DNA from: Salicibibacter cibi | GTDB lineage: Bacteria > Bacillota > Bacilli > Bacillales > Marinococcaceae | Length of the DNA: 64,000 nucleotides | Direction of reading: 5' to 3' | Assembly: GCF_016495865.1 (NCBI RefSeq) | Contig: NZ_CP054706.1 | Span: 1,178,001-1,242,000, forward strand | Part shown: positions 45,543 through 60,359 of the stretch, piece after piece | How positions within the stretch are numbered: the first letter of the stretch is position 1 | How the letters are laid out: each line of letters starts with the position of its first letter | The notes under the pieces: model-generated | What the model was told of the DNA's origin: nothing | Seen by the model: the letters and a program-made list of their open reading frames with translations, nothing else | The model's database searches: none | Position numbers and translations under genes: made by a program

Positions 45543-45977
45543 ATGCAACGTAACGAGCAGATGTATCATCATTGTCTTCAACATAAGGGAAGACACGTAA
45601 AGGCAGATATGGCGGATCAGCAAACGTTTTACGGTTTTGTGGAAAATGTCGACGTAGAAAACGTATACTTGATCATTTTGGAAAGTGATGATGGTAACAA
45701 TGGATATGACCATCATCATGGGGGCCACGGGCACCACCATCACGGGCACCATCCCGGGAATGAACACTATTATGGGCAGGGCCACCAGCATCACGGATAC
45801 GGCCATCAAGACGGAAACTGGGGCCATTATCAACCACAAATGGATCAACGCGTATTCGGCGGCTATGGATATGGTTATCCCGGCTACGGATATGGAGGGT
45901 TTGGAGCACCCGGTTTTCGTTGGAGAAGATTAGCATTGCCGCTGGCAGGGTTGGCTGCACTTTCCCTCTTGTTTTAA
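45543..45977 (+). CDS. His/Gly/Tyr-rich protein, possible spore coat or metal-binding protein
   Basis: 144 residues with a very strong AAAGGAGG site. The N-terminal 50 residues form a small fold (HCLQHKGRHVKADMADQQTFYGFVENVD); then comes a His-rich stretch (residues about 55-95 with HHHGGHGHHHHGHH and more), a GYG/GYP-rich segment and a hydrophobic C-terminal tail (LALPLAGLAALSLLF). Such composition suggests metal binding and surface or coat location in spores; that is inference. Its own terminator was split by the integrated element. Confidence 0.75.
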   Translation: MQRNEQMYHHCLQHKGRHVKADMADQQTFYGFVENVDVENVYLIILESDDGNNGYDHHHGGHGHHHHGHHPGNEHYYGQGHQHHGYGHQDGNWGHYQPQMDQRVFGGYGYGYPGYGYGGFGAPGFRWRRLALPLAGLAALSLLF

Positions 45978-45984
45978 TTAATCA

Positions 45985-46014
45985 CAAGACCTCATCCATG
46001 GTAAGGATGAGGTC
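45985..46014 (+). other. Left junction (attL): half terminator fused to element
   Basis: The chromosomal arm AAGACCTCAT (45985-45994 region) and the 19-bp core 45996-46014 (CCATGGTAAGGATGAGGTC). The core is repeated exactly at 59548-59566. Joining the left flank and core to the right flank (TTT CCTATG...) rebuilds the stem AGACCTCATCC/GGATGAGGTCT with loop ATGGTAA and a T tail, a normal terminator for the His-rich gene. Confidence 0.8.
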
Positions 46015-46042
46015 GCCGGTTCGAGTCCGGCAGGAAGCTCCA
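45991..46042 (+). pseudogene. 3' half of tRNA-Thr (GGT)
   Basis: From the anticodon stem (CATCC, loop ATGGTAA with anticodon GGT, GGATG) through the T arm (GGTTCGAGTCC) to acceptor 3' strand GGAAGC and CCA. The 5' half is absent: the upstream bases are the terminator arm. So this is the portion an integrative element carries on its attP to restore tRNA-Thr after insertion, not a functional tRNA. Confidence 0.85.
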
Positions 46043-46084
46043 GTCATATCAAGGTTTTCAGCTTTTCCTCATGTTTGCATTATG

Positions 46085-46109
46085 AATTGCAGTGACGGGA
46101 CAGTGACGA
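46085..46109 (+). repeat. Arm-type direct repeats, left end
   Basis: CAGTGACGGGACAGTGACGAC contains two CAGTGACG words 11 bases apart. A related block is at 59425-59449 (CAGTGACGAAACAATGACGAC). Paired 11-bp repeats near both ends are what Tn916-family integrases bind with their N-terminal domain; that role is inferred. Confidence 0.5.
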
Positions 46110-46133
46110 CATGACCCGCTCACCCTTACCTTT

Positions 46134-46544
46134 TCATGCATTAAAGAAGCTCGAGAAACGTTCCGCAGAATCTTGATGCACCTGTGGGCGGACATGTGAA
46201 TAAATGTCCATAGTCGTTTCAGCTTTAACGTGCCCTAAACGTTGCTGAACGATTTTTACGTGTTCGTTCATTTCTAGCATTAAAGTAGCGTGCGTGTGCC
46301 TTAATTCATGAAACGTGATCTGTTTGACTTCAGCACGTTCACAAATGCGTTGCATCGCTCGCCGTACATTTCGTTTCATCATATAACCGCCTTTTAAGTT
46401 TGCAACAACAACATCAGATTTCGGCGTTTGTTTCTCTTTATATAGCTTTAAATATTCTGCTTGTTGATCGGAAATCGGGATGTCTCGCCGAGAGGATTCC
46501 GTTTTTAGTCGACCTAATTCTTTTTCCTGTTCATGATAAGCCAA
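46134..46544 (-). pseudogene. int: Tyrosine integrase, C-terminal fragment
   Basis: Only about 136 residues remain. Catalytic features of the C-terminal half are present: HELRHTHATLM (the HxxR box), QRLGH and the nucleophile Tyr in MDIYSHV. The first catalytic Arg, and the arm-binding and core-binding domains, are missing: the frame is blocked by stops a few codons upstream. The start codon assigned by the frame (TTG 46544) is not natural. The 5' end was deleted, so excision is not expected without help. Confidence 0.9.
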
Positions 46545-46662
46545 TGGTGATAAACATTACCTACTATAAATTCGCCGTGATCAGAATGTAGCGAGTTGAT
46601 AAGCGCCAGGATAGGAGCGGTACAAAAAATAATGTTTAAATCTCAAAGATTGGGGTTTATTT

Positions 46663-46956
46663 ATGAAAAAAGCTGTTGTTTTGAATCGCCATTATATGGA
46701 AGATGTTTTTGAACAAGAGGGTATGCCTGAATTTGGATTAAAGTATGCAGAAAAGGCAAATGAGGAATTAAGCGGATTGGATTTGCAAAAAGGAGAAGTT
46801 GTAAATGTCATTGGCTTGGAAGTAACAAGTTCTAGTTATGATTTAAGGATACATTGTAAGTTGCAGGTTGTTGAAGATGAAAAATATGATGTTTTGTGGG
46901 AATCGGGTGATTTTATGCCGATTCATTTTTTATATGTCATGAAAACTTATGAATAA
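46663..46956 (+). CDS. Hypothetical ICE protein at the ydcO position
   Basis: 97 residues, acidic, with no known domain. It precedes helP by 18 bases and is transcribed with it, the place held by ydcO in ICEBs1. The strand-rich centre (VVNVIGLEVTSSSYDLRIHCKL) suggests a small beta-barrel. No recognised homology. Confidence 0.6.
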   Translation: MKKAVVLNRHYMEDVFEQEGMPEFGLKYAEKANEELSGLDLQKGEVVNVIGLEVTSSSYDLRIHCKLQVVEDEKYDVLWESGDFMPIHFLYVMKTYE

Positions 46957-46974
46957 AAAAGGAGCGAATGAATA

Positions 46975-47364
46975 ATGAATTTTAGAAGTGGGATTAAACC
47001 TGATGTGAAAGTAACTTTTGGAGATATGATTTTTATGGGTATGGCTAGAGAAAGACGAGAGTATGACCCTGACAAATCGTTTCAAGAAAGGCCATTACAA
47101 GCGAGAGTCTATAATTTAGCGTCGTCTACACAAGGGGAACAGATTGAGGTCACTGTACCTGAATATGTTGATGAAAAAGAGATTGATTTTAATGCTCCGG
47201 TGGAATTAAAGAATCCGACTATAAGAGCAAGAGCGCAAGCATCGGGAAATGGATTTGCCAATGTAATTTGGACAGTTGAAGCCGAAGATATTGTTGAAGT
47301 GGGCAAGAAAACATCTAAGGAACCGATGAATGAGCCTGTTGCTTCAGGAGCAGAGAAGAAATAA
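46975..47364 (+). CDS. helP: HelP-like helicase processivity factor (DUF961)
   Basis: 129 residues. DUF961 proteins (YdcP in ICEBs1) help PcrA unwind the element's DNA during conjugative replication. The signature N-terminus SGIKPDVKVTFGDMIFMGMA with REYDPD, the segment RVYNLASSTQGEQIEVTVPE and the C-terminal ARAQASGNGFANVIW are recognised. It has a GGAGCGA site 10 bases after the previous gene. Its partners (nicK relaxase, conQ) are absent downstream. Confidence 0.85.
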   Translation: MNFRSGIKPDVKVTFGDMIFMGMARERREYDPDKSFQERPLQARVYNLASSTQGEQIEVTVPEYVDEKEIDFNAPVELKNPTIRARAQASGNGFANVIWTVEAEDIVEVGKKTSKEPMNEPVASGAEKK

Positions 47365-47415
47365 ACGAAGCGTACTGGTTTAGACTGGTGCGCTTTTTAT
47401 ATGAAGGGAGAGTTT

Positions 47416-47490
47416 GCGTTGGAAACCGAAAAAATTCCTGTTGCTGAACATTTAAATGACTATGAGTACCAATTTTTTTTAAATGCTTAT
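47416..47490 (+). pseudogene. Start of a truncated gene at an inversion breakpoint
   Basis: AAGGGAG followed by TTG 47419 opens a frame (LETEKIPVAEHLNDYEYQFF) that makes sense for about 25-30 codons, then runs into the antisense of conE. The break lies near 47485, where conE (read from the other side) ends. It is the 5' tail of a lost ICE gene. Confidence 0.45.
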
Positions 47491-49988
47491 GCCCACCACA
47501 TTTCTTCAGCTGTTGCTACGGCTGACGCTTCCACCGTTTCAAATACGCCTGCCCATTCATCAAACAGGCATTCCACGCTGATTTTAGCCGTGCGGCGATA
47601 ATAATCCTTGAATAAGCATTGCCCTTGAAACATCCCATCCAACATATCAATATTTTCGTCGCTTGCTTCCATGTTCATCCATTTTAATACATCTTCACGT
47701 TCGGTTGGTTCATCGAACGCAAATGCCACGCCAAAGTTATTGCTTTCTTCTTCACGTAGAGCGTCTTTTGTTGATTGGGAAATAAAATAGAGCGCATTGC
47801 TATAACTACGCCCGACCCTACGCATTTTCTTTTCGACTTTTTTCCCCGTGGGATTGGATGTCAACATCCATGCTTCATCCATAAACTCGGCTGTACGTTC
47901 ATCCTTATTTTGACCAAACAACTCGCAATACCTTCCAAGAGCATACATGACAGCACTCGATTTCAACTGTTCACTTGTATAACTTTCATAGCTATCATTC
48001 ACCTCGGGTAAATCCAAATTCTCAATTTCTACAATACTAATGCGGCGATTTAAAGATAAGGCATCATTCGAGCCATCATGAACACATAAGCGCATCACCC
48101 CATCCGCCATAACTTCATATAAAAAATTGCCTGCCTTCCGCACATCCACATCTTCATGCGCCTGCATTTCATAGATCACATGCATACTGCCAACTTTTTC
48201 CCCTTTTTCTTTCTGTTCCTGCACTTTCGTTATTGACTGTAAAAAGGCTGTATGCACATCATCCTTTCCCGAAAAATCATAGACCTGTTCAAAAATCATT
48301 GTGACCATTTCTTTTTGTTGCGTGGAGGGCAAGAATACAATCGGGTCTAATGCTCCCCAATTGGCTTGATCTTCGGGGTCTAACGTAATAAAGTGGAATC
48401 TCTCCAAATGCTCCACAAACAACGGAAAATCTTTTCGCACTTGCTGATTTTTCATCACTTTCCGTATCCATTTTCTTAACTCTTTTTTCGGATCAATATA
48501 CAAGCATTTGATATCCAATAACGAGATATAAATAAACAGCAGCTTAGCCAGAAATGATTTTCCATTCCCTGTATCGCCTGTTATAAGAACATGTGGCGAT
48601 TTCGTCTTTGTCCCTTTTATTTGTTGATTCGCTAGAAACGGATGGAAAAACACTGGATCACGGCTTGAACCGATCGCCGCATCCAAATCTTTATGCTGTT
48701 CAAATCGATCAATCCAACCGACGAAAAAGCCAATATTCGAGCCAACCGATGCATTAACCCCGAATAGGCACTCCGCCAAACCATCCTGCGACGTTTTTTG
48801 CATCCAGTTTCGATCTTTCACGTCAATCGGTTCGCCAGGCAAAAACTTATAGAACAATGATAATTGGTCAGCCACTGGTATTCGTGCAACAATCCCCATC
48901 GACTTTAATCGACGTTTGACCATCTTTGCTCTCGTTAAACAGTCTTTTTTCGTTTGTCCATCTACGATCACCACAGCCATCCAGTTAAACATATGCACGT
49001 CATCTTTTTTAATATCGTCCTGCAAGTTTCTGATCATTTGATCACTTTCACTTATGGACGCATCCGTTTCATCCCCGGTCTGATTTTGCTCTCTCGCCGA
49101 TTCTCGTAACTGTTTCTTTTTCATATTGACCTTCATTTTGGTTTGGGATTTACTTTCCACTTGTGCTTTAATATCAACTTCAACAGGAAACGGTAAGGCT
49201 TGCGTCTCATAGAATAAATCGCTATCCGCCATATTACGGGGAAATTCATCAATCACAACAAAACTGATATATCCTTCATCTTCATCACTGTTCAGATTTA
49301 AAACGGATGGAGAAGTAGGGTCAATGAGCGTATTCGTAACAGCTTTCCTTGAAGCATTCGCCATTTCCTCTGAAACCTGATGATCTAACCCACGAATAAA
49401 GTGATAACGATTAATATAAATCATTTCTTTCTCCGTTAATGGTGCACCATCAACCATCCCCATTGTGTCCGCTAATTCCTGTTCAGCTTCTTGATATTTT
49501 TCAAAGAAGGATGTTGTAACTTCCTGCTCCCATCCTAATAGATTCACAATGGTATCCGTTGCTGTTGAAAGCATCGACATCATATTTTCTTTTACATCGG
49601 CATCTATCCTTACCATATCCGCTCTTAAACGAACACCGACGATAAAATCACTTTTCGTCACCGTCCCCAATCGCTGTCCTAATAGTGATTCTGTCTCATC
49701 CAAATAATAGTTCGCCATATCTTCGGTATCTAAAGCCACATCTTGCTTCAGATTCTCAAAACGCTCATGCAGTTGATATTCCTGGGGATACATCATAAAG
49801 TGAAAATCCTGATACTTTGTTAACTCCTGCAAAAACTCTCGCCATCGTTTTTTATAGCTTTCCACTTCTTTTTCATTTTGCTTCGGAATGGACTTCGCCT
49901 TTATACGATGATACGCCCAAACGTCGCCCCCTCTCGTCAGTAGCAAATTCCGATACATCGTTTTCATAGGCGTTTGTACGTCTGCCAT
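47487..49988 (-). CDS. conE: ConE, VirB4-type conjugation ATPase
   Basis: 833 residues, close to the 831 of ICEBs1 ConE. Powers DNA or protein passage through the Gram-positive type IV secretion channel. Walker A TGDTGNGKSF near residues 475-485, Walker B region with the later motif EFMDEAWML, and the C-terminal domain are intact. ATG 49988 overlaps the last 116 bases of conD, which the lengths of both proteins support. Stop lies at the breakpoint with the opposite-strand fragment. Confidence 0.92.
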   Translation of the reverse strand: MADVQTPMKTMYRNLLLTRGGDVWAYHRIKAKSIPKQNEKEVESYKKRWREFLQELTKYQDFHFMMYPQEYQLHERFENLKQDVALDTEDMANYYLDETESLLGQRLGTVTKSDFIVGVRLRADMVRIDADVKENMMSMLSTATDTIVNLLGWEQEVTTSFFEKYQEAEQELADTMGMVDGAPLTEKEMIYINRYHFIRGLDHQVSEEMANASRKAVTNTLIDPTSPSVLNLNSDEDEGYISFVVIDEFPRNMADSDLFYETQALPFPVEVDIKAQVESKSQTKMKVNMKKKQLRESAREQNQTGDETDASISESDQMIRNLQDDIKKDDVHMFNWMAVVIVDGQTKKDCLTRAKMVKRRLKSMGIVARIPVADQLSLFYKFLPGEPIDVKDRNWMQKTSQDGLAECLFGVNASVGSNIGFFVGWIDRFEQHKDLDAAIGSSRDPVFFHPFLANQQIKGTKTKSPHVLITGDTGNGKSFLAKLLFIYISLLDIKCLYIDPKKELRKWIRKVMKNQQVRKDFPLFVEHLERFHFITLDPEDQANWGALDPIVFLPSTQQKEMVTMIFEQVYDFSGKDDVHTAFLQSITKVQEQKEKGEKVGSMHVIYEMQAHEDVDVRKAGNFLYEVMADGVMRLCVHDGSNDALSLNRRISIVEIENLDLPEVNDSYESYTSEQLKSSAVMYALGRYCELFGQNKDERTAEFMDEAWMLTSNPTGKKVEKKMRRVGRSYSNALYFISQSTKDALREEESNNFGVAFAFDEPTEREDVLKWMNMEASDENIDMLDGMFQGQCLFKDYYRRTAKISVECLFDEWAGVFETVEASAVATAEEMWWA

Positions 49989-50397
49989 CTTTTCGCTTCA
50001 CCACCTCTACACATTTTTTAAAAGTTATTTTTTTATCATCCATCCACGTTACATCCCGATCATTACAATACGTCTTATTGGGCAGTTTCACTTTACGTAA
50101 ATAATTGAACAATCCCCAAAGATATAAATAAATATTTTTTCCATCGGGATTGACCTTCCGCATTAACATCGTCAAAAACAACGGTAAACCAACCAAAATA
50201 ATCACAAACGTCAACTCAAACGTAAACGGAAATATCAAGCGAATGACATACATCATCAATCCGGTTAGCGCCATAAAGACAAGAAAATTGATGGTTGGAA
50301 TTAACTCAATCGCAATAGGTAAAGTGTATCTATCCGTCAACTGTTGAATCCGTTTGGGCTCTCGAAAGGCTGGTCGGTAGTTATAGACCACTCGCAT
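49873..50397 (-). CDS. conD: ConD, TcpE-family conjugation membrane protein
   Basis: 174 residues, the same as ICEBs1 ConD. Start at ATG 50397 (AAAGAGG upstream). Two membrane helices (IELIPTINFLVFMALTGLMMYVI and ELTFVIILVGLPLFLTMLM) and a cytoplasmic tail that overlaps the conE start. Part of the channel. Confidence 0.85.
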   Translation of the reverse strand: MRVVYNYRPAFREPKRIQQLTDRYTLPIAIELIPTINFLVFMALTGLMMYVIRLIFPFTFELTFVIILVGLPLFLTMLMRKVNPDGKNIYLYLWGLFNYLRKVKLPNKTYCNDRDVTWMDDKKITFKKCVEVVKRKDGRRTNAYENDVSEFATDERGRRLGVSSYKGEVHSEAK

Positions 50398-50460
50398 ACA
50401 TTCACCTCTTTCATCAAACGTTCCTGCCAATAGCCTTGACAGGAACATCACAATCACCGT

Positions 50461-50715
50461 TTACAAAAGATCAATTAAGGCTTCAATCCAATCCGTGACC
50501 TGATCCCAGTTTTGAACCACAAACGTGACTGCTCCTGCAAATATACAAGCACTAACAACGGCACCAACTCTAAATTTGGCCAAATGCTTTGTAACTAAAA
50601 AAACGACGATCAATGTGATCGCCTGTGTAACGATATTCAGCGCCCAACTTTCCACTTCACCAAGATCAGGTAATGTCGCCGATCCTAAAATCATCACCCA
50701 TTCAAAAAGCCCCAT
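50461..50715 (-). CDS. conC: ConC-like conjugation membrane protein (TcpD type)
   Basis: 84 residues with two membrane helices (LNIVTQAITLIVVFLVT and GAVVSACIFAGAVTFVV) and an acidic periplasm-facing loop. ICEBs1 ConC is of the same size and position, between ConB and ConD. Confidence 0.8.
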   Translation of the reverse strand: MGLFEWVMILGSATLPDLGEVESWALNIVTQAITLIVVFLVTKHLAKFRVGAVVSACIFAGAVTFVVQNWDQVTDWIEALIDLL

Positions 50716-50725
50716 TTTATACCTC

Positions 50726-51664
50726 CTATTGAATCTCTATATTTTCAACAATATAATTTTCATTCATTCGCTCTAAATAGAGGGTCACTTCAAATTCATA
50801 ATTCATCCCTGTTACGTCATCCACCATATGAACATCCGTGTAAACCGAAAATCCTTCTTCCTGTTCTTCGATCGATTCATCCACCATACCTTCATAGGCA
50901 AATGCACCATTCAAACTTTCAGGGTCTTGCATCATATACGAAAGGTCATCTTCGTCACCTGTTGCATATTGCTCAAAAAACTCATCCAAAAACGCCAATA
51001 TCTCTTCCTGTTCATCCCCTACATATTCATCTACATTTCTTTCTTCTTCCTCCACCGTTACGGAAGCAGAAAGATCATCTATATCAGTAAAATATGGCTC
51101 ACCGGATACGGCATACTGTCCATCATCTTCAATAATTGGAACATTCAACAATAATATTTGTTCTTCCGTCGTTCCATCCCCATTGTCACTTATATATGTG
51201 ACCTCATATTCAAACACCGCTCCTTCTTCTGTTTCATCTATATGAAATAACTCAACATTATCTAACCGTCGTTCGCCCTCCATTTCAACATCAACCATAT
51301 TCCATTCGCTTTCCGTATCCATGGAAACCATAAAATTTTCTAGTTCCCCACGACGTTCTTCTAATTCATCCGGATCATCACTAACATTGATATAAGCATC
51401 CACAAAGTCACGCAAGAAATAATCAGCACTCACCACATCCAAGTCTGCTTCTTCTTCCTCCCCTTCTTCTTCATCATCGACCGCCGCACGCAAATCATTG
51501 AATGTGGAACGTGTATTGATCGAAAGCATGGCAGCAAGAATGGAGAAGAAAAGCAATCCTCCGATTAACCCCCAAACCGCAAACGCTGTACGTTTTGACG
51601 TATCTTTTCGTATGCCAGCTTTCTCTTTCTCGGGTTTATGAATATTGGCTTTACGTTGTTTCAT
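50726..51664 (-). CDS. conB: ConB, VirB8-like conjugation protein (TcpC)
   Basis: 312 residues. N-terminal basic cytoplasmic segment, one membrane helix (FAVWGLIGGLLFFSILAAML), then two NTF2-like domains as in TcpC/VirB8. The external domains are very acidic. Shorter than ICEBs1 ConB (354). It anchors the channel and is followed by conC after 10 bases. Confidence 0.85.
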   Translation of the reverse strand: MKQRKANIHKPEKEKAGIRKDTSKRTAFAVWGLIGGLLFFSILAAMLSINTRSTFNDLRAAVDDEEEGEEEEADLDVVSADYFLRDFVDAYINVSDDPDELEERRGELENFMVSMDTESEWNMVDVEMEGERRLDNVELFHIDETEEGAVFEYEVTYISDNGDGTTEEQILLLNVPIIEDDGQYAVSGEPYFTDIDDLSASVTVEEEERNVDEYVGDEQEEILAFLDEFFEQYATGDEDDLSYMMQDPESLNGAFAYEGMVDESIEEQEEGFSVYTDVHMVDDVTGMNYEFEVTLYLERMNENYIVENIEIQ

Positions 51665-51711
51665 CCGTGAAAATAAATGCTTGATATTTATAAGAATTTA
51701 TCCAATAGATG

Positions 51712-51795
51712 TTATTTTTTCTTTTTTGATTTTCCAAACAAACCTATTCCAGCAGCTATGGCAATACCTATAGCGACCCAGACACCAGTACCCAT
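51712..51795 (-). CDS. Small membrane protein (27 aa), YddA position
   Basis: Starts at ATG 51795, with GGGGGGCGG 8 bases before. One helix, GVWVAIGIAIAAGIGLF, then a lysine tail. First small gene before conB, as yddA is in ICEBs1; the sequence is too short for a firm assignment. Confidence 0.55.
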   Translation of the reverse strand: MGTGVWVAIGIAIAAGIGLFGKSKKKK

Positions 51796-51890
51796 CGTTT
51801 CCGCCCCCCTTGTCTAATTAGGTTTCCTTATTCCTTTCTCAAATTTAGATGAATCTTTTCTACACCCCATTTATAATATAATATTTTCAT

Positions 51891-52040
51891 TTATTTGCTC
51901 AATATCCAAATCCAACTACCTCCAATACACTTGCACCAATTTTTCCTAGGGTTCTTCTGATCCCACCCGAACCAAATAAAACTATACATACCGAAAATCG
52001 CTGAGTATATCACATAGTCCCTTATATATTCGGGCTCCAT
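51891..52040 (-). CDS. Small membrane protein (49 aa)
   Basis: ATG 52040 with GGAAGGGG upstream. One membrane helix (YVIYSAIFGMYSFIWFGW) followed by a basic loop with two cysteines and a Trp-rich end that looks cut short (GGSWIWILSK). Transcribed toward the con genes. No family recognised. Confidence 0.5.
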   Translation of the reverse strand: MEPEYIRDYVIYSAIFGMYSFIWFGWDQKNPRKNWCKCIGGSWIWILSK

Positions 52041-52145
52041 GGTAATCCCCTTCCAATTTTATTATTAAACAGTCATGACCCTAAAAGCGAAAGTGTTGCA
52101 ATCTTATACCGAAATAATTGCATTTGCTTCGTGATGTGTACACGG

Positions 52146-53357
52146 TCATGTTAATAATTTTCCACCATACGTCCACTTTCGCCATAAGTATTCCAGCGGA
52201 CCTTGCTTGAATTTTTTTAAATAAAAGTGACTGAGTATTAATTGTATGATGTAGATAGCGATGGCCAACAAGAATCCGCCTCCGATCGATACTTGGCCGA
52301 AAAGTCCAAGGCCAAATCCGTAAAAAATTGATACACCAATCAACGTTTGCAACAAGTAATTGGTGAGCGCCATTCGTCCAACTGCCGCGATGGGCATGAA
52401 AAGCTTCAGCCTGCCACCTGAATGTAAAAGGAGTACCAATGCGGAAACATAGAACAACATCAGGATCGGTCCCGCTAAAAAGTGCAATCCTTCTGAAATA
52501 CCGTAACTGATTGAAGCCGGAAGTGGACCCAATCCATATTTAAGACCTACGACGATGGCTACTGAGGCAAGGCCACTCCAGCAGGAATGTATGCAGATTT
52601 TTTTCCAGCGATTGAGGTTTGCTGCAACGTCATGAAACATTCTCGTTTTTCCCATGTAAAGTCCGATCAGGAATAGCGGTAAAATCCCCGGAACGGTGAG
52701 AAAGACATTGAACAGCACGGGCACGACCTCGTTGACGAAACGATATTGTAAAATCTCCATATATGTCCCTTCCATCATCGTTGTTATCGCCATCCCCCGT
52801 GTATCATTTTGAACAAATTCATCCGTCCCCATCATCGATAACATCAATCCGGATACAGTCAGCATTGCTGTCAAGATAAAGGTACCGATGCCAAGCATCA
52901 ACACTGCCCATAGCAATATGGTTCGTGGTTTCCGATTGATGAACAACAATAACAAAAAACCTGCCAATGCATAAGTGTGCAAAATATCCCCAGTCCACAA
53001 GAAGACCAGATGAATCAAACCAATCACCAATAAAAAAACCAAACGCCTTGAAAATAGCCGACCTGCCGATAAGCCTTTTTGACGTAACCTATCATAAAAA
53101 ATAAAGAACCCGAGACCAAATAGCAGAGAGAACATGGGATAGAATTTATTGTCGATAAAAAAGCTAACAAATATGCTGACAATTTGATTGAACATTCCAT
53201 CTGGCAAGACGGCACCTGTGAACATCAATTTTGTTTCGTCAGCGAACAACGTTTTAAACACGTACATATTCGCAATAATAATTCCTAACACCGCGATTCC
53301 TCGTATGATATCTAGCGTATGAATCCGCTCATTTTTCTTAATCGCATTTGCACTCAT
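52146..53357 (-). CDS. DUF418 family membrane protein
   Basis: 403 residues. About ten membrane helices. The N-terminus (RIHTLDIIRGIAVLGIIIAN) and the C-terminal block (VGRMALTNYLLQTLIGVSIFYGFGLGLFG) identify the DUF418/YeiB family, relatives of acyltransferase 3 enzymes, thought to act on membrane components or export. The start at ATG 53357 has a GGGGGC site at about 6 bases. Its neighbour upstream is a TetR gene on the same strand, likely its regulator. Cargo of the element. Confidence 0.88.
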   Translation of the reverse strand: MSANAIKKNERIHTLDIIRGIAVLGIIIANMYVFKTLFADETKLMFTGAVLPDGMFNQIVSIFVSFFIDNKFYPMFSLLFGLGFFIFYDRLRQKGLSAGRLFSRRLVFLLVIGLIHLVFLWTGDILHTYALAGFLLLLFINRKPRTILLWAVLMLGIGTFILTAMLTVSGLMLSMMGTDEFVQNDTRGMAITTMMEGTYMEILQYRFVNEVVPVLFNVFLTVPGILPLFLIGLYMGKTRMFHDVAANLNRWKKICIHSCWSGLASVAIVVGLKYGLGPLPASISYGISEGLHFLAGPILMLFYVSALVLLLHSGGRLKLFMPIAAVGRMALTNYLLQTLIGVSIFYGFGLGLFGQVSIGGGFLLAIAIYIIQLILSHFYLKKFKQGPLEYLWRKWTYGGKLLT

Positions 53358-53460
53358 AGTAGCCCCCATTATTTTACTATTATTAGATCAAAACATTAAT
53401 TCTTCATTTATGGATATTAAAACCTTCAACAAGTTGGCTTTTGTTACATAATTGAGCGAA

Positions 53461-54126
53461 TTACTCATTTTCATCGCTATCTCTTGAATATAAGTTATGA
53501 AGCAGGGTTGCTGTTTCATCAATGAGCTCGTCACTAACGATATCTGCACCGATTGATCGCATTATTTCTTGTACAAACTTCAACCGTTGATATAATTTTT
53601 CTTCATCAGCTTTGAAAATCACGGGATCACAATAAATATTGAGTAATAAAAAGAAAACCTCTGCACTTTCAACCGGATATTTTGTAGCAATAGATCCGTC
53701 TGCCAATCCTTTTTTCATAATATCCGAAAATACGGGAGCACTATTTTCTATGGAATCTTTCATGATTGATACGATAAAATCAGGACTCTTTATTTGTGTG
53801 CTTAATACTTTATCAAAAGCACGCGCTTCCTGATCTGCTATATTTTTTTCCAAGATCGCGGTTAATTTCTCTCTTTCTGATTGTGCATCGACTGTACCCA
53901 TCCACTTATTCAAGCTTTCTTTTACGCTACTGGCCTTGTTTTCTTTGACAGCATTTATAATTTCATCTTTCGAATTAAAATGATGATAAATACCGCCTTT
54001 AGATATCTCAAGCGTATTTGCAATATCTTGCATGCTTGTTTTTTCGTAGCCTTTTTCCATAAACAACCGAACCGCCGTTGCCATAATATTTTCCTTTGTC
54101 TGTTTTGGATTATATTTTCTGCCCAT
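53461..54126 (-). CDS. TetR/AcrR-family transcriptional regulator
   Basis: 221 residues with the TetR HTH at residues about 12-50 (AVRLFMEKGYEKTSMQDIA, LEISKGGIYHHFNSKDE). A palindrome CCGA-N4-TCGG at 54157-54168, 31 bases upstream of its start, is a good candidate for an autoregulatory operator. Probably represses itself and the DUF418 gene downstream (92 bases). Confidence 0.9.
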   Translation of the reverse strand: MGRKYNPKQTKENIMATAVRLFMEKGYEKTSMQDIANTLEISKGGIYHHFNSKDEIINAVKENKASSVKESLNKWMGTVDAQSEREKLTAILEKNIADQEARAFDKVLSTQIKSPDFIVSIMKDSIENSAPVFSDIMKKGLADGSIATKYPVESAEVFFLLLNIYCDPVIFKADEEKLYQRLKFVQEIMRSIGADIVSDELIDETATLLHNLYSRDSDENE

Positions 54127-54156
54127 GTTTTATTCACTCCAATTGCCAATTTAATT

Positions 54157-54168
54157 CCGAATGGTCGG
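54157..54168 (-). promoter_or_regulatory. TetR-type operator CCGA-N4-TCGG
   Basis: CCGAATGGTCGG, flanked by AT-rich sequence, before the TetR gene start. Inferred from symmetry and position. Confidence 0.5.
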
Positions 54169-54290
54169 TTTTAAATTTACTCGAAAATATTGTTAATGTC
54201 AAGACAAATTCGGAAATTTTATTAAGTGTAGCTTTAAAATAAAGATCGATCAAAAATACCTCACAAAGCTGTATATTATTGTAAACAAAA

Positions 54291-54330
54291 AAGAATCCAT
54301 TTTGATCAATCTTTTTCAAAATGGATTCTT
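54291..54330 (-). terminator. Terminator with 14-bp perfect stem
   Basis: AAGAATCCATTTTG (54291-54304) with CAAAATGGATTCTT (54317-54330), and a T tract on the minus strand. It ends the gene at 54422-54700. Confidence 0.85.
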
Positions 54331-54421
54331 TCTTTGTGGAGTATTGTTCAATTTTTATAAAAAAGTTTGATCACTTTCTAATGCGATCTTAAACAATCGC
54401 GCCTCGTTTGTTTAAATGTGT

Positions 54422-54700
54422 TTATTTGTCTTCAAATTTTAGGGCATCCACGTACTGTTTGCCTTCCACCAATGAAAGCCCTAATGTTTCTCTTACCTTT
54501 TTCACCGCTTTAACATCTTCACCATCTTTAATTAATTTTCGCAACTCATCATTAATTGGATTCTCAGGAATGTTTACCTGCTCAGAGATTTGGTCTAGAG
54601 TGTACTTTAAGCCTTTAAGACGACCATCAAGTTTAATGACAGTAAAAAGTAAATAAAGACCAATAATTAAAAGCAATATTTCTATAAAGTTAAATTCCAT
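54422..54700 (-). CDS. Membrane protein with ribosomal L7/L12-like C-terminal domain
   Basis: 92 residues. N-terminal membrane helix (FIEILLLIIGLYLLFTVI), a short linker, and a C-terminal domain DVKAVKKVRETLGLSLVEGK that mirrors the L7/L12 C-terminal fold (VKAVREATGLGLKEAK). Such proteins are common in Bacillus and have no known function. Confidence 0.75.
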   Translation of the reverse strand: MEFNFIEILLLIIGLYLLFTVIKLDGRLKGLKYTLDQISEQVNIPENPINDELRKLIKDGEDVKAVKKVRETLGLSLVEGKQYVDALKFEDK

Positions 54701-54833
54701 ATTGAAAATCCCCTAATTTTTCACAGTTTTCTTCGACAATTTGGTTCTTCTCGTGAAGAGCGCAATCCCTGTTATTCCAGAATTGTGCCTCGATTGTTGC
54801 GCAAAAGAAAATTGCTTGCTGTCCTGTAAGGCA

Positions 54834-55313
54834 CTAAATGAAAACACCTTCAATACGAAGTAATTGCTTTTTCATTTCTAAGCCTCCAGCGTATCCAGTC
54901 AAACTTTTACTTTTGCCAATAACCCGGTGACATGGAAATATAATCGGGAACGGATTTATACTGTTTGCATGCCCTACGGCACGAATAGCTTGCGGTCGAT
55001 TAATCAAACGAGCAATTTCAGAATACGATTTTGTTTCCCCATAAGGAATCGCTTGCAATGCTTTCCATGACTGTTTTTGAAAAAATGTTCCTTCAAGTTC
55101 AAATGGTAGCTCAAAATCCTTGCGTTCCCCGCCAACATATTCTTGAAACTGTTGCCGAATCGGTTTTCCTAGCTCAGAGCTTTTTTTAACAGCATTATTT
55201 TCCTTAAAAGTAAACCAATGATGGTCAGTTAATAATATGCGCACGAGCGTTCCATTTTCCCTTAAAACAAATCTTAAACATCCTATATCTGTTTGATATT
55301 CGTCATAGACCAT
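54834..55313 (-). CDS. adaB: AdaB methylated-DNA-protein cysteine methyltransferase
   Basis: 159 residues. Repairs O6-alkylguanine; active site FPCHRVIGKS and helix PYGETKSYSEIA are intact. ATG 55313 lies inside the end of adaA (11-base overlap), giving coupled translation as in the B. subtilis adaAB operon. Second paralogue of ogt at 12873. Confidence 0.93.
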   Translation of the reverse strand: MVYDEYQTDIGCLRFVLRENGTLVRILLTDHHWFTFKENNAVKKSSELGKPIRQQFQEYVGGERKDFELPFELEGTFFQKQSWKALQAIPYGETKSYSEIARLINRPQAIRAVGHANSINPFPIIFPCHRVIGKSKSLTGYAGGLEMKKQLLRIEGVFI

Positions 55314-55875
55314 AGCTGAAATCCTTTCTATACTGTTGGGGTGTACACTGTGTCTGTTTTTGAAAAGCATGATAAAAACTTGAGGCGTTTTGAAACCCTA
55401 CTTCATAACAAATATCAATAATTGATCGGTCAGTGTTTATTAAAAGCTCAACGGCCTTACGTACACGTATGTGCTCTAAAAAGGAGCGTGGCGTTTTTGA
55501 CGTTTGCTTTTTAAAAACTCGCCCTAAATAATAGGGGCTTATACCGATATGTTGCGCTATTTGCGTCAATGTAAGGTTTTCCATATAATTCGCTTGAATA
55601 TATGCCTTCGTATCATTAATGAGATCCATTTGGGGATCAAAGTTTATCATATCCGGTTGGCATCTTTTGCAGGGACGAAAACCTGCACATTTTGCTTCTT
55701 CTGCTGTTGGAAAAAAGGTGATATTTTCTTTATTGGGGCATCTTGACTTACAAGAAGGGCGGCAAAAAATTCCTGTTGTTTTCACCGCATAGAAAAACTG
55801 GCCGTCATATGAATGGTCACAGCTGTTAGCGATTTTTACCATGTCATTGAAAGAAAACTCTGCATGAACAACCAT
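55303..55875 (-). CDS. adaA: AdaA methylphosphotriester methyltransferase and transcription activator
   Basis: 190 residues from ATG 55875 (CAGGAGC at 8 bases; an upstream ATG at 55899 is possible). The N-terminal Ada zinc domain has the four ligands Cys38, Cys42 (FCRPSC), Cys69 and Cys72 (CKRC). The C-terminal part is an AraC-type double HTH (TLTQIAQHIGISPYYLGRVFKK, IIDICYEVGFQNASSFYHAF). Methyl transfer from DNA phosphotriesters to Cys38 turns it into an activator of adaAB. Confidence 0.93.
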   Translation of the reverse strand: MVVHAEFSFNDMVKIANSCDHSYDGQFFYAVKTTGIFCRPSCKSRCPNKENITFFPTAEEAKCAGFRPCKRCQPDMINFDPQMDLINDTKAYIQANYMENLTLTQIAQHIGISPYYLGRVFKKQTSKTPRSFLEHIRVRKAVELLINTDRSIIDICYEVGFQNASSFYHAFQKQTQCTPQQYRKDFSYGL

Positions 55876-55903
55876 GTCGCTCAGCTCCTGTCTCTTCATT
55901 ATT

Positions 55904-57151
55904 TTAACGCCTTTTATTAAAAAAGAACATGTAAGCTACATATATAGAAATGACCACCAATGGAACAATGATGTATGACCGAAAAAACGGGAGGACGAGG
56001 GCACATAAAATCATGGCGATCAATGAACAAATCCACGGCAATGTTCCTTTTCTAAATAGCTTAACACCAGCGGCCATTGAAAGAATATAAACAAGAATCC
56101 CCAAGGACGTTGGAATAAATAAAATATCATTAAACGTAAGAGAAAAAGCGTTTGTCATGAACACTCCCGCCCCTGCGAACATAACGACAAACAAAACCAT
56201 ACGTCTTGATATTTGGATTTTTGAGTGTAACACCGAAAAATAAGAAGGAAAAGCCCCATCTCTACTTAGTGAATAACCAAGCTGAGTAAGACTTGCGACA
56301 AATGCGTTTGTTGTTCCTGTACAAATGATGAAAGCGAGAATACCGGTCAGCAATTGAGCATGTAAACCAAACGTATCATTTATAATAACGGCAATAGGCG
56401 ATAAATCACTCTCCATATCACCGTACGTGCCTGTGCCAATGGTTATAAAACTAAGGGCAAGAAAAAGCACACCAATAATTATAGCACTTATAATAGTACT
56501 TCTAACGATGTTTTGATTGGGATTCTTAAAATTGTTTGCAAGGTTACAAATCGCCTCCCAACCAAAAAAAGCCCAAAAAATGGCGGTTATAGCAGATCCG
56601 ATTGAACCACTTCCTCTAGGGAAAAAAGGGCTAAATTGATCCCAACTTATACTAGGAATAGCCAATACAATCGTTACTACTAACAGAAGAAATAAACAAC
56701 CACTTAACAGTAATGCCAATTTGCCACTTACTCGAATGCCATAATAGTTAGTGATTCCGGCAATAACCAACATCAATATGGCAGCAAACGTTATCTCCAT
56801 CTGTGAAAAATCAAAGGCATTTCCTAAATAATAAGCGCCTGTTAAAGCAACAATGGTTTGTCCGACTGCTGCTGTAACAAAATAGAACCATCCAATAATA
56901 TTTCCTAAATGTTCCCCGAATGAATACCTTACAAAAGTGGCAGCCCCTCCAGCGTCTGGGTATTCTCGCGCTAAACAAGCAAACGAATAAGCCAGGGGAA
57001 AACTAATCATAATCACGATCATCCAAGATAATATGGACGCTGGCCCGGCTATTGAGGCTGTAACACTGGATAAAAAAAGGACACCAGATCCTAAGACCGT
57101 TGCAATATATAAAGCAATCCCTTGAAATAATCCAATTGATGTATTGGTCAT
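55904..57151 (-). CDS. Amino-acid permease, APC superfamily (YjeH-like)
   Basis: 415 residues with about 12 membrane helices. The first helix signature GIALYIATVLGSGVLF and the helix-6 region AIFWAFFGWEAICNLANNFKNP are typical of the APC superfamily YjeH/amino-acid efflux branch. It lies upstream of adaA on the same strand (28-base gap) and may be co-transcribed with it. Substrate not known; YjeH exports branched-chain amino acids and methionine in E. coli. Confidence 0.88.
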   Translation of the reverse strand: MTNTSIGLFQGIALYIATVLGSGVLFLSSVTASIAGPASILSWMIVIMISFPLAYSFACLAREYPDAGGAATFVRYSFGEHLGNIIGWFYFVTAAVGQTIVALTGAYYLGNAFDFSQMEITFAAILMLVIAGITNYYGIRVSGKLALLLSGCLFLLLVVTIVLAIPSISWDQFSPFFPRGSGSIGSAITAIFWAFFGWEAICNLANNFKNPNQNIVRSTIISAIIIGVLFLALSFITIGTGTYGDMESDLSPIAVIINDTFGLHAQLLTGILAFIICTGTTNAFVASLTQLGYSLSRDGAFPSYFSVLHSKIQISRRMVLFVVMFAGAGVFMTNAFSLTFNDILFIPTSLGILVYILSMAAGVKLFRKGTLPWICSLIAMILCALVLPFFRSYIIVPLVVISIYVAYMFFFNKRR

Positions 57152-57324
57152 GTAGTCACCTCTTTTCTACATGCAATATACCAATATAAGATTAAGGTAC
57201 GCTTCCGGATTTTTGCGGTCTAATTTATTAAAGTTTCTAATGGCTGTTCTGAACTATTATGTTAACGATGAATCAACATTTAAGAAGGTTTTTAAGATGC
57301 CATTTATTCCAGATAATCGCTCTT

Positions 57325-57360
57325 TTCTGGTACAACCTTTATTCCACAAAAGCGCTACGT
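57325..57360. repeat. Dispersed 29-bp repeat, copy 1
   Basis: TGGTACAACCTTTATTCCACAAAAGCGCT occurs here near 57329-57357 and again with one change at 58623-58653. Both are in gaps between minus-strand cargo genes. Confidence 0.65.
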
Positions 57361-57449
57361 TTATAGAACAGTCCAAACTTATATTAGCTGGTATCATTAG
57401 AGGTAGAGCCAATAGCTTAAAAATCAATTTACAATGATTATCGAGCGAA

Positions 57450-57995
57450 CTAACTGATTTTAGCTTGCATGAGTTCGTATATCTTACGAGCAGTATTAAC
57501 ATTTCTTACCGTAACTTGTTTGTATAATTTTGATCCAACAATCTTTGACATTCCGCTTTTGGTTACATTTTTCTTCTCAACAGACCATAGAATCGCTCCG
57601 GGAACATATTTCACCGTGTCAATATTTGGTTTGATAACCACATTCTCAAGAACGGACTCATCATCAATTTCATCCCATAAAAACATAACGTCACTTTTGC
57701 TGTCTTTGTCATTTTTCCACGTGTCAGGAATAGCATTAATGATTCGTCTGACATCATCAACGCTACGAACTACTACTTTAATTTGTAACCCGAAATCATA
57801 ATGTATTGCTTCTTCCAATATACTTGATAGCTCAGCTTTTGATATTCCTTTACATGAAAAAATAATATTACCTGTATTGATATATGTCACCACATCATTC
57901 ATCTCGGCTTTTTCAAACGTTTGTTTAAGTAATTTCATGTCAACTTTATTTTTCCCGCCCACATTAATCCCCCGAAGAAGAGCAATATAAACCAT
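57450..57995 (-). CDS. DUF1697 protein
   Basis: 181 residues. Begins with the family's invariant YIALLRGINVGGKNK and has TYINTGNIIFSCK soon after. Found widely, often beside DinB-like or accessory genes; no known reaction. ATG 57995. Confidence 0.9.
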   Translation of the reverse strand: MVYIALLRGINVGGKNKVDMKLLKQTFEKAEMNDVVTYINTGNIIFSCKGISKAELSSILEEAIHYDFGLQIKVVVRSVDDVRRIINAIPDTWKNDKDSKSDVMFLWDEIDDESVLENVVIKPNIDTVKYVPGAILWSVEKKNVTKSGMSKIVGSKLYKQVTVRNVNTARKIYELMQAKIS

Positions 57996-58028
57996 AACAA
58001 TCCCCCTTGAGCCCTTTAACGTAACAAA

Positions 58029-58544
58029 TTAGTTCGTCGCTTGTCTGTCATAAAGATACATAATATAATCCGTCGGTACGCTAGGATAACCTTGTTGGCG
58101 TATCATCGCGGTAAGATTCCCACGGTGATAGGTACCATGATTGACGACATGCTGTACGAGTTCTGAAAGATGTGTTTCCAGCCGTCCGAAAGTCGGATGT
58201 TCTGCAATAATAGGCTTGTCCATATCTTCTTCACTATTGAAAAAGGCTCTATACATTTTGGCTAACTCTTCATACAGGGTTTCCATTTCTTCGATACCCT
58301 TATCCTTTGTCTTTTCTTGCGCCTGTATAATGGAAGATTGAACCTCATCCATGCTATTCTCCCGCATTACACCAAGGTATATTGTATCCGTCATATAAAC
58401 ATGAACAAGCGTCTCCGCAATTGAGGGAAAAACACTTTGAATTTCCTGGGTGTAAACACTAGGAGGCAGCTCTTTTAACCTTTCGAAAAATCTGTTATTT
58501 GCCCAGATATGATAGTCATACAACTGTAAGGCACGGTGTTTCAT
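58029..58544 (-). CDS. DinB-family metal-dependent protein
   Basis: 171 residues. Four-helix DinB/YfiT fold with the His triad: first in ETLVHVYMTD, then HVVNHGTYHRGNL. These proteins bind Ni or Zn and act in bacillithiol- or glutathione-linked transfer reactions in some species. It may share a transcript with DUF1697 (33-base gap). ATG 58544. Confidence 0.88.
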   Translation of the reverse strand: MKHRALQLYDYHIWANNRFFERLKELPPSVYTQEIQSVFPSIAETLVHVYMTDTIYLGVMRENSMDEVQSSIIQAQEKTKDKGIEEMETLYEELAKMYRAFFNSEEDMDKPIIAEHPTFGRLETHLSELVQHVVNHGTYHRGNLTAMIRQQGYPSVPTDYIMYLYDRQATN

Positions 58545-58622
58545 TTAAGACTCCTCCTTAATTATTCGCCTTATTATGGCTTTATTCTATCATAAAACCT
58601 TATTCAACAATCTGGCCTTTTT

Positions 58623-58653
58623 GTGGTACAACTTTTATTCCACAAAAGCGCTC
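58623..58653. repeat. Dispersed 29-bp repeat, copy 2
   Basis: TGGTACAACTTTTATTCCACAAAAGCGCT; preceded by CAACAATCTGGCC, whose near reverse complement GGCCCGATTGTTGAATA is at about 59330-59347. These belong to a dispersed palindromic repeat common in Bacillaceae intergenic DNA; I know no function. Confidence 0.6.
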
Positions 58654-58683
58654 GATTGGGGAATAACCTTTTATAAATTTGTA

Positions 58684-58971
58684 TTACATATTTTTACGGA
58701 AGTACATAATGGATATAGCATTAATGAGAATGAGTAGGGATAATACTGCAACTATAACGACTCCTAGTATTTCAGCAGAAATATTTAAAAATCCTACTAC
58801 TAAAACTAAAATTGCAAAAATAAGAAATAAAAAACTCATAGTAATATATGAAGCTTTAGCAAGTATGAACTTCCCTCTTTCATCTGTCCCTTCCTCCTTT
58901 GAAAAGCTAATGTACTTGCCTAAACCAAAACCTGCTATAATCACCGATATAACAATAAGTACATTGACCAT
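58684..58971 (-). CDS. Hypothetical membrane protein paired with an XRE regulator
   Basis: 95 residues with three hydrophobic helices (VLIVISVIIAGFGLGKYI, ITMSFLFLIFAILVLVVGFL, ILGVVIVAVLSLLILINAI). Its ATG overlaps the TAA of the XRE gene by one base (TAATG), so the two are translated as a pair. Function unknown; XRE plus membrane protein pairs of this kind occur in many Bacillus genomes. Confidence 0.8.
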   Translation of the reverse strand: MVNVLIVISVIIAGFGLGKYISFSKEEGTDERGKFILAKASYITMSFLFLIFAILVLVVGFLNISAEILGVVIVAVLSLLILINAISIMYFRKNM

Positions 58972-59195
58972 TAACTGTCACCCTTTCTCTTATAAGTAAA
59001 AATATCTTCAATCTGCTTATCAAATAATAAAGCAATTTCAAAAGCTAATTTTAAAGATGGATTATATTTGTTGGATTCTAAAGAATAAATCGTCTGTCTA
59101 GTTACATTAAGTTGATCCGCAACGTATTTTTGGGTCCAACGTTTTTCTGCTCTGAGGATATATATATTATTGAATAAATCATTCTCTTCTTTCAT
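58971..59195 (-). CDS. XRE-family helix-turn-helix regulator
   Basis: 74 residues, the size of small Cro-like regulators of the YozG/YvaO kind. HTH: WTQKYVADQLNVTRQTIYSLESNKYNPSLKLAFEIA. First gene of a pair with the membrane protein. Confidence 0.92.
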   Translation of the reverse strand: MKEENDLFNNIYILRAEKRWTQKYVADQLNVTRQTIYSLESNKYNPSLKLAFEIALLFDKQIEDIFTYKRKGDS

Positions 59196-59280
59196 TAACT
59201 CACCACACTAAAAAATAATGTAAAAAATATATTACTTAAGTAAAGTTTACATTACATTCATTCGTATGTCAAATTTAAAA

Positions 59281-59322
59281 TAAAAAAAAAAAGGGAGTAG
59301 TTTAAACTACTCTCTTTTCTTC
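59281..59322. terminator. Bidirectional hairpin in the right end of the element
   Basis: GGGAGTAGTTT/AAACTACTCTC palindrome flanked by A's and T's. Confidence 0.7.
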
Positions 59323-59424
59323 AACAAAATGGCCCGATTGTTGAATAGTAATTCTTACATTTCCATGTTAACATCAAAGCCTTTACACAGCTAATTATTT
59401 TTATTGTATGTAGCTGTTCTCCAT

Positions 59425-59449
59425 TTGCAGTGACGAAACAATGACGACT
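59425..59449 (+). repeat. Arm-type direct repeats, right end
   Basis: CAGTGACGAAACAATGACGAC, matching the left block at 46085-46109 in the same orientation, 100 bases inside the right core. Confidence 0.5.
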
Positions 59450-59547
59450 TCATCACTTTATATGCTGTGTATGATCAATACCTTTTCTAAAAGCGTTGAT
59501 TTCCCTCGGTTTTAATCTCAAATATCACTTATATTTCTTCCGGTCTC

Positions 59548-59581
59548 CCATGGTAAGGATGAGGTCTTTCCTATGAGGTAT
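59548..59581 (+). other. Right junction (attR): core repeat and chromosomal terminator half
   Basis: Core 59548-59566 identical to 45996-46014, followed by TTTCCTATGAGG, the right half and tail of the interrupted terminator. No tRNA 5' half is present before the core. Confidence 0.8.
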
Positions 59582-59678
59582 TTCTCCGGCTTTTAGAATA
59601 GCCAACAGTTGGCATGAAAGAAAATGATTGATACTATAAAGTGAAACTACCTCTATAAGAAGAAATGAGTGATGATTG

Positions 59679-60359
59679 ATGAGTTATACGATTTATCTTG
59701 TTGAAGATGAAGAAAACTTATCAGAGGCACTAAGGGCTTATATGGAAAAAGAAGGATGGACGGTAAAACTGTTTCAAGATGGCGATAAAGCACAAGAATC
59801 CGTAGAAGAAAGGCCACATTTATGGGTGCTTGACATTATGCTTCCGGGGACAGACGGTTATCAAATTTTAAAAACGATTCGCGAAATCCAGGGGGATATT
59901 CCGGTTATTTTTATTTCTGCCAGAGACCAAGATTTGGATCGGGTGCTTGGATTGGAAATGGGGAGCGATGATTACATATCCAAGCCCTTTTTGCCACAAG
60001 AACTGATTATTCGTGTCAAGAAATTGTTGACACGTGTGTATGGTTCCGAATCCGAAGAAAACAAAACGGTTGATTTAAATGATTATACGATCGATCCGGA
60101 GGCTCGAACGGTCATAGATGAACAAAATGACAAACAAGTCGTTGATTTGACGACAAAAGAAATGGACCTGATTTTGTTACTGACGGTTCAAGTAGGCAAA
60201 GCCCTTTCCCGCGAGGATATTATTGAGGAAGTATGGGGAGAGAACTATTACGGTTCTGAACGAGCGGTGGATGATGTCGTGCGGAGAGTGCGCAAAAAGA
60301 TGCCTCGCATCCACCTTGAAACATTGTATGGGTATGGGTATAGGATTCTATCGTCATGA
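59679..60359 (+). CDS. cssR: Response regulator CssR
   Basis: 226 residues, OmpR type. Receiver domain with phospho-acceptor in LWVLDIMLPGTDGY and K in ISKPFLPQELI; C-terminal winged helix (LTTKEMDLILLL, GSERAVDDVVRRVRKK). The text is close to B. subtilis CssR (SYTIYLVEDEENL, HLWVLDIMLP), which activates htrA and htrB under secretion stress. Overlaps cssS by four bases (ATGA). Located next to yhaM-prsA, so secretion stress sensor and foldase lie together. Confidence 0.9.
   Translation: MSYTIYLVEDEENLSEALRAYMEKEGWTVKLFQDGDKAQESVEERPHLWVLDIMLPGTDGYQILKTIREIQGDIPVIFISARDQDLDRVLGLEMGSDDYISKPFLPQELIIRVKKLLTRVYGSESEENKTVDLNDYTIDPEARTVIDEQNDKQVVDLTTKEMDLILLLTVQVGKALSREDIIEEVWGENYYGSERAVDDVVRRVRKKMPRIHLETLYGYGYRILSS

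Follow-up and report, generated by a model that had tools for sequence, protein, structure and literature searches.

One well-described element that leaves its tRNA gene is ICEBs1 of Bacillus subtilis, an integrative and conjugative element (ICE) whose primary attachment site (attB) is a 17-bp tRNA stem-loop in which inverted repeats of 5 bp enclose a crossover spacer of 7 bp. It inserts into look-alike secondary sites outside tRNA genes with 1e-4 to 1e-3 of the frequency seen at the primary site (PMC3715440). The secondary insertions described for it, at 15 sites, were obtained in the laboratory and were accompanied by reduced excision and host viability (PMC3715440). Similarly, SGI1 was described to use a secondary attB between sodB and purR, an integrase-driven, intergenic insertion downstream of a gene, with a presumed 7-bp overlap between inverted repeats; its primary site is the 3' end of thdF, not a tRNA gene, and the cases described are experimental transconjugants (PMC2297512). 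The tRNA-gene islands collected in Islander, in turn, carry a tRNA 3' fragment and include an anticodon-centred class of attachment sites (PMC4383910).

The element described here lies in a 64,000-nucleotide stretch of Salicibibacter cibi DNA (hereafter the window; bases 1178001-1242000 of G000, a genome of 3.81 Mb in a single contig). Very probably, it descends from a tRNA-Thr(GGT)-specific ICE of the Tcp type (ICEBs1/Tn916) that was captured at a secondary site, the terminator of a His-rich host gene, and then decayed. Capture at secondary sites is established and not new in itself, and the locus adds a natural example to it, a counterpart of the laboratory insertions of ICEBs1 for which empty sites are attested and the same type of element is found on the proper tRNA. 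Like ICEBs1, with which it is presumably kin through its Tcp/ConE-type conjugation genes, the element has a tRNA stem-loop attB of 5+7+5 form and stands in a look-alike outside any tRNA gene. In contrast to the laboratory insertions, it is natural and decayed, and its target, in a terminator, now matches the 17-bp site fully. It shares with SGI1 the intergenic position downstream of a gene and the 7 bp between inverted repeats, and with the Islander islands the tRNA 3' fragment, although here that 3' half is joined to the arm of a terminator and no tRNA is rebuilt. The word 'terminator' does not occur in the main texts of the ICEBs1 and SGI1 papers (PMC3715440; PMC2297512), and in the open-access literature searched, which is weak evidence of absence, we recognized no report that places a tRNA-specific ICE in a terminator, or that describes a natural relic of this kind together with its empty sites.

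The evidence begins with the ends of the element (Table 1). An earlier reading of these letters without database searches (the sequence-only reading) had proposed that both ends share a 19-bp core and that the left one carries the 3' half of tRNA-Thr(GGT) without a 5' half; both claims are confirmed, the two cores being exact copies and the left one running on into a 28-base stretch identical to the 3' half of the tRNA-Thr(GGT) of this genome. A search of the whole genome for the core at up to 2 mismatches returned five places, against none for the reversed pattern used as control, namely attL, attR, the tRNA-Thr(GGT) gene and two tRNA-derived scars, of which one (L004, 1637368) consists of core and tRNA 3' half with the 5' half absent and the other (L005, 2565872) contains a decayed 3' half with 2 mismatches. 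In the window itself, ARAGORN finds 16 tRNA genes, none less than 20 kb from either end of the element and none of them tRNA-Thr(GGT). The similarity to the tRNA gene exceeds the core (26 of 28 bases match over 45987-46014). Further inward, the ends carry arm-type direct repeats, one at each end, which we take from related integrases to be arm sites for Int (CAGTGACGGGACAGTGACGAC at the left). At up to 3 mismatches this repeat is found at five places in G000 (control, 0), four being element ends with a core and one an arm without a core. Core plus tRNA 3' half and arm-type repeats at both ends mark the element as one of tRNA-Thr(GGT). As a separate observation, an extra right-end arm lies at about 1659.8-1660.0 kb of G000 (L094 16804-16979), where the similarity ends before the core, some 9 kb from a distant match to a tyrosine recombinase (1650889-1651401).

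The 5+7+5 form is CATCC-ATGGTAA-GGATG (45993-46009), present in both tRNA-Thr and attL. These are the only full 17-bp matches in the whole genome, and the next best has 2 mismatches. At up to 3 mismatches the scan returns 23 places, against 2 for the reversed pattern; of these, 19 are neither tRNA-Thr nor attL, attR or the end at 1637373, and 14 of the 19 lie inside a stop-free frame of at least 200 codons. One place (L160, 3097695-3097711) differs from the tRNA-Thr site at 3 positions; it reads CATCC-TCGGTTA-GGATG with a T-rich stretch behind it, and by eye it is a second terminator-like hairpin of 5+7+5 geometry.

When the host flanks are rejoined through a single core, they form a hairpin with a 12-bp stem, AAGACCTCATCC/GGATGAGGTCTT, and the loop ATGGTAA, which begins 8 bases past the stop codon of the His-rich gene (45975-45977). 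The perfect pairing described in the sequence-only reading thus holds, whereas its 11-bp stem and its distance of 10 bases from the stop codon need correction, and the U-tract is weak (TTTCCTAT, against TTTTTATTTTT in G001). Element-free counterparts of the site were located through the right-flank response regulator in the other three genomes of the genus (G001, G002 and G003; four genomes in all), and through a flanking kinase in named genomes, among which the window's own genus may be lacking. The kinase scan returned 29 loci, with Natribacillus and Geomicrobium as the nearest named relatives, and the intergenic sequence was read at five of them, which brings the element-free sites to eight: the three congeners, Natribacillus halophilus and four Geomicrobium-type loci (Geomicrobium halophilum, Bacillaceae bacterium JMAK1, Geomicrobium sediminis and Geomicrobium sp. 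JCM 19039). Each congener has one orthologue of the response regulator (96-97% identity, 3/3), with the His-rich gene directly upstream and the element absent; a counterpart of the His-rich gene adjoins the response-regulator gene in Natribacillus as well. At three of the eight sites the sequence aligns with the hairpin, and all three have the half-sites CATCC and GGATG: AAGACCTCATCC-ATGGT-GGATGGGGTTTTTATTTTT in G001, AAGACCTCATCC-ATCAC-GGATGGGGTTTTTCTTATGA in G003 and AGACCTCATCC-ATGGC-GGATGAGGTCT in Natribacillus halophilus. A terminator scan calls the sites of G001 (13 pairs) and G003 on the + strand. Hairpin and arms are accordingly a host property in this clade, judging from the aligned sites, and the native half-sites support the earlier proposal of capture through likeness between terminator and tRNA; measured against the primary attB, these three of the eight sites have native arms and a loop that matches only in part.

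Several observations weigh against this interpretation. The other five element-free sites (G002 and the four Geomicrobium-type loci) have a different sequence without such a hairpin, so resemblance to the tRNA is no general property of the locus; G002 has a hairpin of its own, which could not be aligned to that of the window. The loop ATGGTAA is present in none of the three alignable sites (ATGGT, ATGGC and ATCAC), so that the uninterrupted sequence whose search the sequence-only reading had suggested is found as adjacent flanks without the element but not with this loop, and with only 5 bases in the loop the half-sites would not be spaced correctly for a 7-bp crossover. The G003 terminator is called with a stem of only 6 pairs, and the scan does not call the Natribacillus site. 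In G001, the closest relative by response-regulator DNA (94%), GGATGGGGTT stands where G000 has GGATGAGGTC, a difference of two arm bases, in both of which Natribacillus agrees with G000. Integration could therefore have produced part of the exact match in G000 instead of resulting from it. Lastly, the sister elements of relatives are not seen directly on the tRNA gene, and are linked to it through the array interpretation given below.

In the reading we prefer, the ICE's own tyrosine integrase would have acted at the Rho-independent terminator of the His-rich gene, whose hairpin would have presented CATCC-loop-GGATG, that is, the two 5-bp half-sites of the tRNA anticodon arm. Strand exchange within the loop would have left the terminator 5' arm, the core and the element-borne tRNA 3' half at attL, and the element arm, the core and the terminator tail at attR; later rearrangement would have truncated int, inverted the DUF961 block and removed the relaxase and coupling-protein genes together with the putative xis. 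Half-sites that match within a hairpin give a concrete reason for a terminator to stand in for a tRNA. By simple arithmetic, about 1/1024 terminators should carry a given 5-bp arm pair, which makes one or two per genome if a genome has roughly a thousand terminators; a match of the arms, taken alone, is therefore unremarkable.

As to the state of the target in G000, either it had ATGGTAA and perfect arms before insertion, or the core of the element was copied into both ends by repair; the AA of the loop, likewise, was either already there or copied in at integration. The second course supposes a weaker target, similar to G001 with a 5-base loop and a wobble 3' arm, and an attR core overwritten by the element core through repair or gene conversion, the perfect 19-bp match being then a consequence of integration and not its reason. 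We give this variant, whose odds overlap with those of the preferred reading, somewhat less than an even chance. It would explain why the closest relative differs from the element's own site (attP) at the loop AA and at two arm bases while G000 has the attP state throughout, and CATCCATGGT, the longest tRNA-Thr piece in the G001 site, might suffice for initiation. On the other side, Natribacillus natively carries GGATGAGGTCT, hence the arm needs no conversion, and pairing in the rejoined stem is perfect over all 12 bp, the TT beyond the core included.

The link to tRNA-Thr is drawn from related elements. Left ends 92.7-98.4% identical to that of the window are found in G001, G002, G003 (98.4%) and G010, in each case 73-89 kb from an intact tRNA-Thr(GGT), on the same strand, and behind a core with CAATGG.. 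in place of CCATGG... The sequence that precedes this core recurs in G020 (L092) and at another G010 locus (L091), where it runs into core and tRNA 3' half without this element; this suggests that the loci of the relatives are tandem arrays of tRNA-Thr elements. G000 itself has a 91.5%-identical left end directly behind its intact tRNA-Thr(GGT), a remnant only, with an integrase scrap of 58 residues and two stops. The expectation that the same type of element would be met on an intact tRNA-Thr(GGT) is thus borne out by a remnant in G000, and in relatives through the presumed arrays. The tRNA-Thr elements of G000 look broken up, with tRNA and left end at 266868 (L001), a right end joined to a tRNA 3' half at 1637368, 1.37 Mb from there, and the decayed 3' half at 2565872.

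From this broken array the window element might have been moved by homologous recombination or rearrangement, without any integration by Int. The dispersed ends at 266868 and 1637368 would fit such a history, which we nevertheless consider very unlikely, as these ends are only 87-91% identical to those of the window, against 98.4% for the left end of G003, the flanks rejoin into a hairpin resembling those of G001 and G003, and homologous recombination normally needs more than a short shared core. That the locus once held a tRNA-Thr gene which lost its 5' half, leaving the core and 3' half at the left end beside a coincidental terminator, is contradicted already and barely merits consideration, since ARAGORN finds no tRNA gene at any of the eight element-free loci, exact tRNA-Thr pieces in their intergenic sequence reach at most 10 bases (CATCCATGGT in G001, GGATGAGGTC in Natribacillus) and tRNA-Thr(GGT) is intact elsewhere, beside tRNA-Asn, in 4/4 genus members. 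Neither finding that the sequence-only reading had named as contrary to it, a full tRNA-Thr gene at this place in relatives or flanks that never adjoin, was made, the flanking genes being adjacent in the element-free relatives.

The gene content, called with Pfam profiles and some NCBIfam models, is that of a remnant of the ICEBs1/Tn916-type family and not of a working member, because the Rep_trans/MobT-type relaxase has no match in the whole of G000 (the same query is positive in G010, G001 and G002 and negative in G003). The earlier designation as an ICE therefore stands for the Tcp-type conjugation genes, with VirB4/ConE, TcpC and TcpE counterparts all present, and not for an intact element. 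A comparison is offered by the sister element of G010, with 22.8 kb between its cores. Its genes code for a tyrosine integrase of 355 aa, a protein of 104 aa that occupies the place of an excisionase but matches no family, a lysozyme/M23 protein, VirB4, TcpE and TcpC counterparts, a Rep_trans relaxase (below the cut-off of the MobT model), an FtsK-like protein and a VirB6-like protein (below the Pfam cut-off). The Int remnant of the window comprises 135 residues, equivalent to residues 221-355 of the G010 protein, so that the N-terminal ~220 residues are missing, and with them, presumably, the first catalytic Arg. Among the Int matches in G000 the two close ones are fragments, and the other five are 23-33% identical. 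At the DNA level, the window element resembles that of G010 by 98% over the left end and int C-terminus, by 95%/93% over the DUF961 block (L095 7741-8596 and 9104-9197), which is flipped relative to int and conE, by 79% from conE to tcpC and by 88% at the right end; in the cargo only about 50 bases match. Because the DUF961 block is at 93-95% and conE-tcpC at only 79%, the element looks like a mosaic. The G010 stretch that begins with the int N-terminus and ends short of conE, and the G010 relaxase and FtsK-like genes, have no DNA match in the window element, which lacks the relaxase, coupling protein, VirB6-like, lysozyme and putative excisionase genes of its sister. An FtsK-like coupling protein was not found among the 17 element open reading frames (ORFs) scanned, and neither this gene nor that of the putative excisionase was searched for in the rest of G000.

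As the ends are intact and the integrase is broken, decay after insertion is suggested, although integration by an integrase supplied in trans is possible. The truncated Int suggests that the element would no longer excise, and it is probably immobile now. For the host, the insertion retained the hairpin at attL, now followed by GCCGGTTCG, and displaced the T-tail of the terminator by 13.5 kb, to attR. The terminator scan makes no + strand call at attL and one - strand call. Transcription of the His-rich gene may read through into the element.

Table 1. Features of the element and its host flanks (positions in the window; aa, amino acids)
Feature	Positions	Strand	Description
His-rich host gene, presumed owner of the target terminator	45543-45977	+	ORF; no Pfam match
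Host 5' arm of the hairpin	45986-45997	+	AAGACCTCATCC; all 12 bases in G001 and G003, last 11 in Natribacillus
Left core (attL), 19 bp	45996-46014	+	CCATGGTAAGGATGAGGTC; exact copy of right core
Loop ATGGTAA, presumed crossover region	45998-46004	+	Inside left core
tRNA-Thr(GGT) 3' half (T arm, acceptor, CCA), element-borne	46015-46042	+	Equal to 3' half of the genome's tRNA-Thr(GGT)
Left arm-type repeat, putative Int arm site	46090-46110	+	CAGTGACGGGACAGTGACGAC
Tyrosine integrase, C-terminal remnant	46134-46544	-	PF00589 from profile position 60
Inverted block: 97-aa ORF (46663-46956) and DUF961 (46975-47364)	46543-47498	+	PF06125
VirB4/ConE-like conjugation ATPase	47487-49988	-	PF12846; NCBIfam TcpF model far below its cut-off
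TcpE-like	49873-50457	-	PF12648
TcpC-like	50726-51664	-	PF12642
Cargo region	52146-59195	-	DUF418, TetR, methylguanine methyltransferase domain, Ada domain, amino-acid permease, DUF1697, DinB, HTH; two small ORFs without Pfam match
Right arm-type repeat	59428-59448	+	CAGTGACGAAACAATGACGAC; same place in G010 right end and in L004
Right core (attR), 19 bp	59548-59566	+	Exact copy of left core
Host 3' terminator remainder	59567-59580	+	TTTCCTATGAGG..; resembles G003 TTTCTTATGA after its terminator stem
Response-regulator host gene, right flank	59676-60359	+	PF00072/PF00486; orthologues in 3/3 congeners

Whether terminators serve more widely as a reservoir of decoy sites for anticodon-arm integrases, in which trapped ICEs decay with loss of relaxase and integrase, is a broader idea that we regard as doubtful. 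It is prompted by the fact that terminators and anticodon arms are both short GC-rich hairpins of the same geometry. Loss of relaxase and integrase would be expected if replication from an inescapable site killed the host, and selection against a trapped ICE that replicates would predict the losses seen here, of integrase, putative excisionase and relaxase. If terminators were indeed used repeatedly, island searches confined to tRNA genes would overlook a class of insertions. The general claim stays weak because no second terminator capture outside the genus was shown among the 29 loci (L058-L086) whose context was read in a family search for the 19-mer, which at up to 1 mismatch returned 44 places in 29 genomes. 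ARAGORN calls tRNA-Thr at 24 of these loci and none at five, of which L063 and L076 consist of core and tRNA 3' half and L065, L075 and L086 of neither. The G022 locus (L075) was considered as a second capture and rejected, as what is seen there (L101) resembles a tRNA-Thr array that has been damaged, and a degenerate 3' half lies ~200 bp further on. At the remaining two, L065 and L086 (G012), no integrase was recognized nearby by eye, and no family search was made. G012, a genome of another genus, has two exact 19-mers outside any tRNA (L098 ~5410 and L099 ~5895), again with no integrase recognized nearby by eye. These copies match the tRNA-Thr of that genome over 30 (L098) and 23 (L099) bases.

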